DNA from: Porphyromonadaceae bacterium
GTDB taxonomy: Bacteria > Bacteroidota > Bacteroidia > Bacteroidales > Paludibacteraceae
Direction: 5' to 3'
Assembly: GCA_012523295.1 (NCBI GenBank)
Contig: JAAYIT010000151.1
Coordinates: forward strand, 1-64,000
Length of the DNA stretch: 64,000 nt
The position numbers and the translations under genes are program-made. Under the pieces are notes generated by a model. The model saw nothing but the letters and a program-made list of their open reading frames with translations, ran no database searches and was not told where the DNA came from. Within the stretch, counting starts at the first letter, position 1, and every line of letters starts with the position of its first letter. Positions 5,455-52,824 of this stretch are shown one piece after another.

Positions 5455-5548
5455 ACGTTTAATATTTATTTTTTTAACACTAAGGTCGTATGGAACACGC
5501 CATTAACGAATCTCTTGGATTTGAGAGTTTCTTAAATGGCTGTTTCAT
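5452..5548 (-). promoter_or_regulatory. Conserved structured leader element, copy A (upstream of mazG)
   Basis: Minus strand ATGAAACAGCCATTTAAGA...TTAATGGCGTGTTCCATACGACCTTAGTGTTAAAAAAATAAATATTAAACGTATG; same motif at 21343 and 52729; TAACTTTG -7-like box just upstream (5562-5569, minus). Confidence 0.8.
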
Positions 5549-21342: not shown

Positions 21343-21439
21343 ATGAAACAGCCATTTAAGATAAGTCTTAAACCTAAGGAAATGATTAATGGCGTGTTCC
21401 ATACGTCCTTAATGTAAAAAATAAAAATTTAAACGTATG
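21343..21439 (+). promoter_or_regulatory. Conserved structured leader element, copy B
   Basis: ATGAAACAGCCATTTAAGATAAGTCTTAAACCTAAGGAAATGATTAATGGCGTGTTCCATACGTCCTTAATGTAAAAAATAAAAATTTAAACGTATG; ends at the downstream start codon. Confidence 0.85.
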
Positions 21440-52679: not shown

Positions 52680-52728
52680 CACTCCATTATAGTTGAAATT
52701 ATATAATTATTATTAATAGATTGATCTA

Positions 52729-52824
52729 TGAAACAGCCATATATGATAAATCTTAAACTCAAGAGAATGATTAATGGCGTGTTCCATACGACCTTAGTGT
52801 TAAAATATAAAATATAACCGTATG
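52729..52824 (+). promoter_or_regulatory. Conserved structured leader element, copy C (upstream of TonB-dependent receptor)
   Basis: ATGAAACAGCCATATATGATAAATCTTAAACTCAAGAGAATGATTAATGGCGTGTTCCATACGACCTTAGTGTTAAAATATAAAATATAACCGTATG. Confidence 0.85.

Follow-up and report, generated by a model that had tools for sequence, protein, structure and literature searches.

The window, a stretch of 64,000 nt from contig JAAYIT010000151.1 of a Porphyromonadaceae bacterium whose 4.0-Mb genome is in 417 contigs (G000, here called the home genome), contains three copies, A to C, of a 94-bp element, each abutting the start codon of a different gene. A preliminary description of this DNA took the element for a cis-regulatory RNA switch present in three copies. 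We favor another reading, to which we assign a probability of roughly 80%: the copies are mini-elements that derive from a bridge-RNA-type IS110 transposon landing on the start codon, non-autonomous and resembling miniature inverted-repeat transposable elements (MITEs), and they carry their own AT-rich initiation region. The switch fits poorly with genes that are unrelated to one another, with insertions that are absent from the orthologs tested, with tandem arrays, with copies away from gene starts, and with two ends that both match an IS110 transposon having the same target.

Empty sites and placement on start codons

The core of the element, CATACGWCCTTARTGT, occurs without mismatch exactly three times in the window, always within copies A to C, but the genome carries about 180 copies rather than three: 183 core matches at no more than 2 mismatches, as against 9 for a reversed control. 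A hidden Markov model (HMM) search of about 1 Mb of home DNA identified 128 copies, which form at least two sequence subfamilies. Several older copies (L041:10811, L078:4433, L090:6254, L091:2994) contain a nested short palindrome, CCCGATATCTATCGGG, close to the 3' arm of the long stem described below; palindromes of this form are a second small repeat inserted into the mini-element.

Orthologs of dnaN, serC, murG and mazG were taken from seven other genomes of the genus, and murG was left out because its starts aligned too poorly to use. For dnaN, serC and mazG, clear empty sites are found in same-genus genomes, exactly at the start codon, with the element of the home genome placed between the native promoter and 5' untranslated region on one side and the start codon on the other. 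At mazG, relatives have TAACTTTGC, about 20 nt and ATG, where the home genome has TAACTTTGC, about 12 nt, the element and ATG. In line with the earlier suggestion that the element is probably transcribed, it lies within the transcribed leader, downstream of a native TAnnTTTG promoter, most clearly at mazG. In one relative, G003, the serC start codon is occupied by a different, 62-bp member of the family, an independent insertion.

Among gene-proximal home copies ending on a start-type codon, 71 of 87 open a reading frame (ORF) of at least 60 aa, compared to 24% of control ATGAA sites. In 84 of the 87, the start codon is followed by AAN (45% for other genes), and T precedes the left ATG in 80% versus 38%; the target is therefore TATGAA(A/T). 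We counted occupied and empty ATGAA[AT] sites in the fetched, element-rich home contigs, and found 63 occupied to 249 empty at gene starts and 15 to 462 in intergenic regions, while inside genes 4 were occupied of more than 2,200. Placement upstream of start codons, as first described, thus holds for most copies, although some sit at ATGAA sites that are no gene starts. The preliminary description had itself allowed that copies bearing no relation to start codons would point to a simple MITE-like repeat, and the findings on host genes, orthologs, tandem arrays, copies away from start codons and shared ends largely bear out that reading.

Host genes are unrelated to one another, and some are essential (dnaN, polA, murG, serC and ispF, named from sequence). 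Different subtypes of the mini-element occupy the same genes across species, namely ispF (L050:13937 and L234:6160), serC (L157 and L153) and a trpA-like gene (L216 and L262), which suggests insertion hot spots. The home genome also encodes, at G000:C248:27542-28666 on the minus strand, a second, diverged DnaN-like protein with 29% identity to its DnaN.

In 28 of the 128 home copies, the element is followed directly by another copy, head to tail, with the ATG shared and a period of about 93 bp; around a quarter of the copies examined stand in such tandems. The upstream copy is the more diverged in 24 of these 28 neighbor pairs, and new copies therefore seem to arrive beside the gene. A preference for sites that already end in CGT would explain why the newer tandem copies lie nearest the gene.

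Ends shared with a full-length IS110-family element

Some copies adjoin not a gene but a longer element that begins ATGAAACC(C/T)ACATGA and that, in Paludibacter, runs into MDNETIEFEQVVARGCG. Both there and in the home genome, mini-elements directly abut the ends of insertion sequences (ISs). An IS on home contigs C222 and C371 has a right end, ...TTATTTTCGT (CGT), that is followed by ATGAAA and a left end, ATGAAACCACCATGAG, that starts with ATGAAAC. Its recombinase, METVNFQQVVNRGCGIDVHKKTVVATI, matches DEDD_Tnp_IS110 (PF01548, 6.7e-32) and Transposase_20 (PF02371, 8.6e-11), and weakly the IS621 structure (8wt6, 5e-7). In both copies the recombinase ORF (L310:1074-1561, L311) breaks into two frames (337 + 113 aa in L310) where nine A follow one another; a programmed frameshift could account for this, as could decay that the copies share. 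Related ISs are present in G283, G289, G672, G734, G541 and G750, and those with both ends resolved are 1,484-1,699 bp long. The G672 copy occupies the start codon of a nuoE-like gene, whereas that of G289 (L314, G289:C73) seems to break up a glycosyltransferase-like gene, at an ATGAA in its interior, both genes being named from sequence; the target is thus the sequence ATGAA, and not initiation itself.

The IS110 family typically lacks terminal inverted repeats, and its IS1111 group has subterminal inverted repeats of 11-13 bp with extensions of 7 bp on the left and 3 bp on the right. ATGAAAC (7) and CNN (3) here have the extension lengths expected for the IS1111 group. After its recombinase gene, the home IS has a 3' non-coding region of 302 nt, containing a module conserved among genomes, in which NNN-ATGAAATTTT follows the right-end CNN in G000, G672 and G734. 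This region sits where IS1111-type elements encode their guide (bridge or seek) RNA and is a candidate guide region.

An HMM built from mini-elements of other genomes, with home copies withheld, connects the two kinds of element. Its positions 1-55 align to IS left ends and its last 24 or so to IS right ends, at the expected places and in several genomes, with best left-end E-values of 4e-4 and 2e-3 compared to 1.9 for the best shuffled sequence. The right-end trinucleotide of the IS is that of the genome's own mini-elements in G000, G283 and G750 (CGT) and in G672 and G734 (CGG). This extent of homology, about 55 bp of the left end and 24 bp of the right and so well beyond the junction, makes it unlikely that mini-elements are an independent repeat merely used as a target, in the way IS621 uses REP sequences, even though IS copies do lie directly against them and IS110 targeting of repeats is already known (PMC11208160, PMC11187229). 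Furthermore, the ISs also occupy ordinary ATGAA sites, at the start codon in G672 and in the gene interior in G289. Movement of hairpins as single strands by a Y1 transposase of the IS200/IS605 or RAYT type, as for REP sequences, is a good deal less credible still: there are hairpins near both ends of the element, and Y1 genes (PF01797) are common in the family, but none of 30 sampled Y1 genes had an element next to it, elements are present in G289 and G295 although no Y1 gene was matched there, and the termini match IS110 elements instead.

The element resembles a MITE in being short (about 94 bp), multicopy (about 180) and devoid of a transposase gene, and in sharing both its ends with IS110 elements of the same genome, those of home contigs C222 and C371 included. 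Between the IS ends there are no terminal inverted repeats of at least 7 bp; these being absent, and the parent family typically lacking them, we use the term MITE-like only. Such elements would arise by internal deletion of an IS110-family transposon, leaving its first 55 bp or so, an internal GTTCCATNNG and its last 24 bp or so. The IS110 recombinase would then mobilize them in trans, directed to TATGAA(A/T). On insertion, the native ATG would become the left edge of the element, and the right end would bring an AT-rich initiation region (...AAATTATTNNCNN) directly before the restored ATGAA, so that the host gene would still be translated. Insertion at TATGAA(A/T) would account for most surviving copies being exactly on a start codon, and the retention of a start codon through the AT-rich right end and restored ATG would account for tolerance at essential genes.

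Several points weigh against this derivation. The evidence for movement is the comparison of empty with occupied sites; neither transposition nor excision was observed, and mobilization in trans by the IS110 recombinase is inferred. Single left-end HMM scores are modest. The IS right end of G541 (CAG) matches only a minority type of mini-element there, and that of G289 (CAT) differs from the mini-elements seen in that genome (CAC). No clear GTTCCATNNG was found in the ISs, save for a degenerate match within the left end of the one in G289. Many genomes with mini-elements have no close IS110 match (11 of 24 and 3 of 22 were positive), which points to frequent loss or stronger divergence of the IS. 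No inverted repeat of at least 7 bp was found between the IS ends, whether terminal or subterminal, which leaves placement in the IS1111 group unsettled. Finally, when TATGAA[AT] is required of the empty sites, gene starts still have 5.9-fold odds of occupancy over intergenic sites, an enrichment that needs target context or selection beyond the hexamer; pairing of the guide with AT-rich sequence upstream could be its source, as could selection.

Folding and complementarity to the element junction

The long imperfect stem, small inner hairpin and CATACG/CGTATG pairing of the preliminary description were all recovered by fold prediction on the three window copies, whose z-scores relative to shuffles are -2.6, -5.8 and -1.8. 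The further claim of mutually exclusive folds was overstated: minimum-energy folds of all three copies hold both hairpins together, competition with the CAT/ATG pairs of the second hairpin being confined to the ATG/CAT pairs at the outer end of the long stem. An Rfam scan returned only weak matches, none reaching the gathering threshold, in agreement with the impression that the element belongs to no known family.

The start-codon hairpin covaries strongly across genomes. CATNNG and CNNATG are complementary in 38 of 68 genome-by-arm combinations, in a test that left the 3' arm free apart from ATGAA, while shuffles, which ignore shared ancestry between genomes, gave a mean of 8.5 and a maximum of 21 in 20,000. 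The Watson-Crick types are ACG/CGT, ATG/CAT, GTG/CAC, CTG/CAG, CAG/CTG and CCG/CGG, and the same trinucleotide types turn up again in distant families. From 28 diverse copies, RNAalifold recovered the start-codon hairpin alone, missing the long stem because of a fixed A.C mismatch, register shifts and tandem GA mismatches. The inner part of that stem varies in matching ways, judged by eye and without statistics (CCCACATG/CATGTGGG, TTGCATG/CATGCAA, GCCATT/AATGGC). The GTTCCAT of its 3' arm, AATGGCGTGTTCCAT, is complementary to the left-end ATGAAAC except at the one fixed A.C mismatch.

With the same exception, joining the right-end CNN to the left-end ATGAAAC gives a sequence whose reverse complement is GTTCCATNNG, and the joined sequence is the exact junction observed in tandem copies. 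The most likely meaning of this complementarity of the element to its own right-end/left-end junction is recognition of donor ends, not regulation of the gene. During RNA-guided recombination, GTTCCATNNG would read the CNN+ATGAAAC junction, its NN covarying with the right-end CNN. On a bolder and rather improbable reading, every mini-element would bring a donor-end guide of its own: its RNA, transcribed within the leader of the host gene, would fold so as to present GTTCCATNNG, and such mRNAs could supply guide RNA to an IS110 recombinase that acts in trans and lands on start codons.

These folding results bear on the original proposal of an RNA leader (a riboswitch, thermometer or protein-binding leader) in which CATNNG would alternately occlude an upstream ATG and the start codon of the gene. 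A position within the transcribed 5' leader, covariation of the start-codon pairing, folding better than shuffles and over-representation at true start codons are all as such a leader would have them. We nevertheless consider it improbable, since the two hairpins are not mutually exclusive, the host genes are unrelated, the insertions tested are species-specific, copies occur also at non-start ATGAA sites, and the same trinucleotide terminates the IS110 transposon in most genomes checked. Functionally unrelated downstream genes and empty orthologous sites are, likewise, not what a riboswitch would lead one to expect. A secondary effect of the element on host-gene expression is possible. Regulation by a conserved upstream ORF (MKQPFKISLKPKRMVNGVFHTTLM, 24 aa), through translation or attenuation, was rejected as extremely unlikely: the frame is open in 66 home copies, but it is shifted in window copy A and ranges from a few codons to about 30 in other genomes, so that shared ancestry explains the home pattern.

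The features of the window copies are collected in Table 1. Copy C begins one base earlier than first described, and copies A and B lie where they were placed. The ORFs opened right after copies A, B and C are 268, 1548 and 993 aa in length; by Pfam, the first is MazG (PF03819, 1.8e-35), the second a Por-secretion-tail protein, and the third has a CarboxypepD_reg N-terminus.

Table 1. Mini-element copies and their parts in the window
Feature	Position	Strand	Remark
Mini-element copy A, 94 bp	5455..5548	-	Directly before mazG start codon (5454-5452); empty sites in G001, G004, G005, G006, G007
Mini-element copy B, 94 bp	21343..21436	+	Directly before start codon (21437) of 1548-aa Por-tail protein
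Mini-element copy C, 94 bp	52728..52821	+	Directly before start codon (52822) of 993-aa CarboxypepD_reg protein
ATGAAAC, left terminus of copy B	21343..21349	+	Its ATGAA is the target and recurs at the right junction
AATGGCGTGTTCCAT, 3' arm of long stem, copy B	21388..21402	+	Contains GTTCCAT; conserved across genomes
CATACG "anti-start" arm, copy B	21400..21405	+	In other genomes, its variable bases covary with the three bases preceding the start codon
CGT (right terminus of copy B) + ATG start codon	21434..21439	+	Pairs with CATACG
CATACG arm, copy C	52785..52790	+	Pairs with CGTATG at 52819-52824
CATACG arm, copy A	5487..5492	-	Pairs with CGTATG at 5457-5452

Distribution and relation to known systems

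A DNA search detected diverged families related to this one, both within the genus and in further genera of its taxonomic family. Of 393 Bacteroidales genomes, 38 contain the pattern GTTCCATNNGWCCTT-N(10-40)-ATGAA, with 105 copies in the home genome and 1-24 in each other carrier, the order being read from those records that carry names. A pattern scan of GTDB genomes gave matches in Paludibacter, Dysgonamonadaceae, Proteiniphilum, Massilibacteroides, Marinilabilia rubra, Prolixibacteraceae and others. Among the matches listed there, 66 of 80 open at the terminal ATG a reading frame that either reaches 60 aa or is cut off by the contig end. The mini-elements are mostly 62-115 bp and contain no gene. 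Copies from Proteiniphilum and Dysgonamonadaceae (L206, L213, L217, L259, L267) are longer in the variable loop, several of them through an insert around CGACGTAGTCAACA, and L206 is lengthened by a nested insertion of about 75 bp. Viral contigs gave nine matches to the generic core, every one without the other features of the element; these were set aside as chance or coding matches.

If the derivation proposed here is true, there is a family of RNA-guided recombinases with the start codon as natural target, and its miniature derivatives bring a replacement initiation region, which lets them settle even on essential genes, dnaN, polA and murG among them; a transposon would thus reconcile high copy number with a dense genome. 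It would explain recurrent 5'-leader repeats of Bacteroidales that can be mistaken for riboswitches, provide naturally occurring covariation that bears on how IS110 systems recognize donor ends, and offer candidate systems for inserting DNA at start codons. The diversity of IS110 targets is already known, as are MITEs; in the literature searched, with subscription journals outside its coverage, we found neither a miniature element derived from IS110 nor an IS110 element targeting start codons.

Intergenic repeats of the REP/RAYT and ERIC/Correia types are short, structured and dispersed in one genome. The mini-element is likewise a short, structured, dispersed repeat, but it is placed exactly on start codons, forms end-to-end tandem units, and shares its ends with IS110 rather than RAYT. 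Closer parallels are the IS-derived MITEs, such as MITECca01 from IS982 in Cardinium (PMC9769881) and MITEPye1 from IS1182 (PMC11578231), which are also short, geneless and multicopy, share their ends with a resident IS and are presumably mobilized in trans; our element differs in its lack of terminal inverted repeats, in having a presumably RNA-guided IS110 as parent, and in insertion at start codons.

IS110/IS1111 elements move through a circular intermediate, for which they use a recombinase together with an RNA that recognizes both target and donor ends (bridge RNA, Durrant 2024, PMC11208160; seekRNA, Siddiquee 2024, PMC11187229). The full-length IS described here agrees with them in its DEDD_Tnp_IS110 recombinase, long 3' non-coding region, fixed short target, lack of terminal inverted repeats and right-end/left-end junctions, and the complementarity to donor ends covaries. 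It departs from them in the absence of any subterminal inverted repeat found, in its target, the start codon TATGAA, and in its association with mini-elements that are geneless and mostly 62-115 bp. Where the guides of IS621 are split, a single contiguous segment here complements both sides of the junction.
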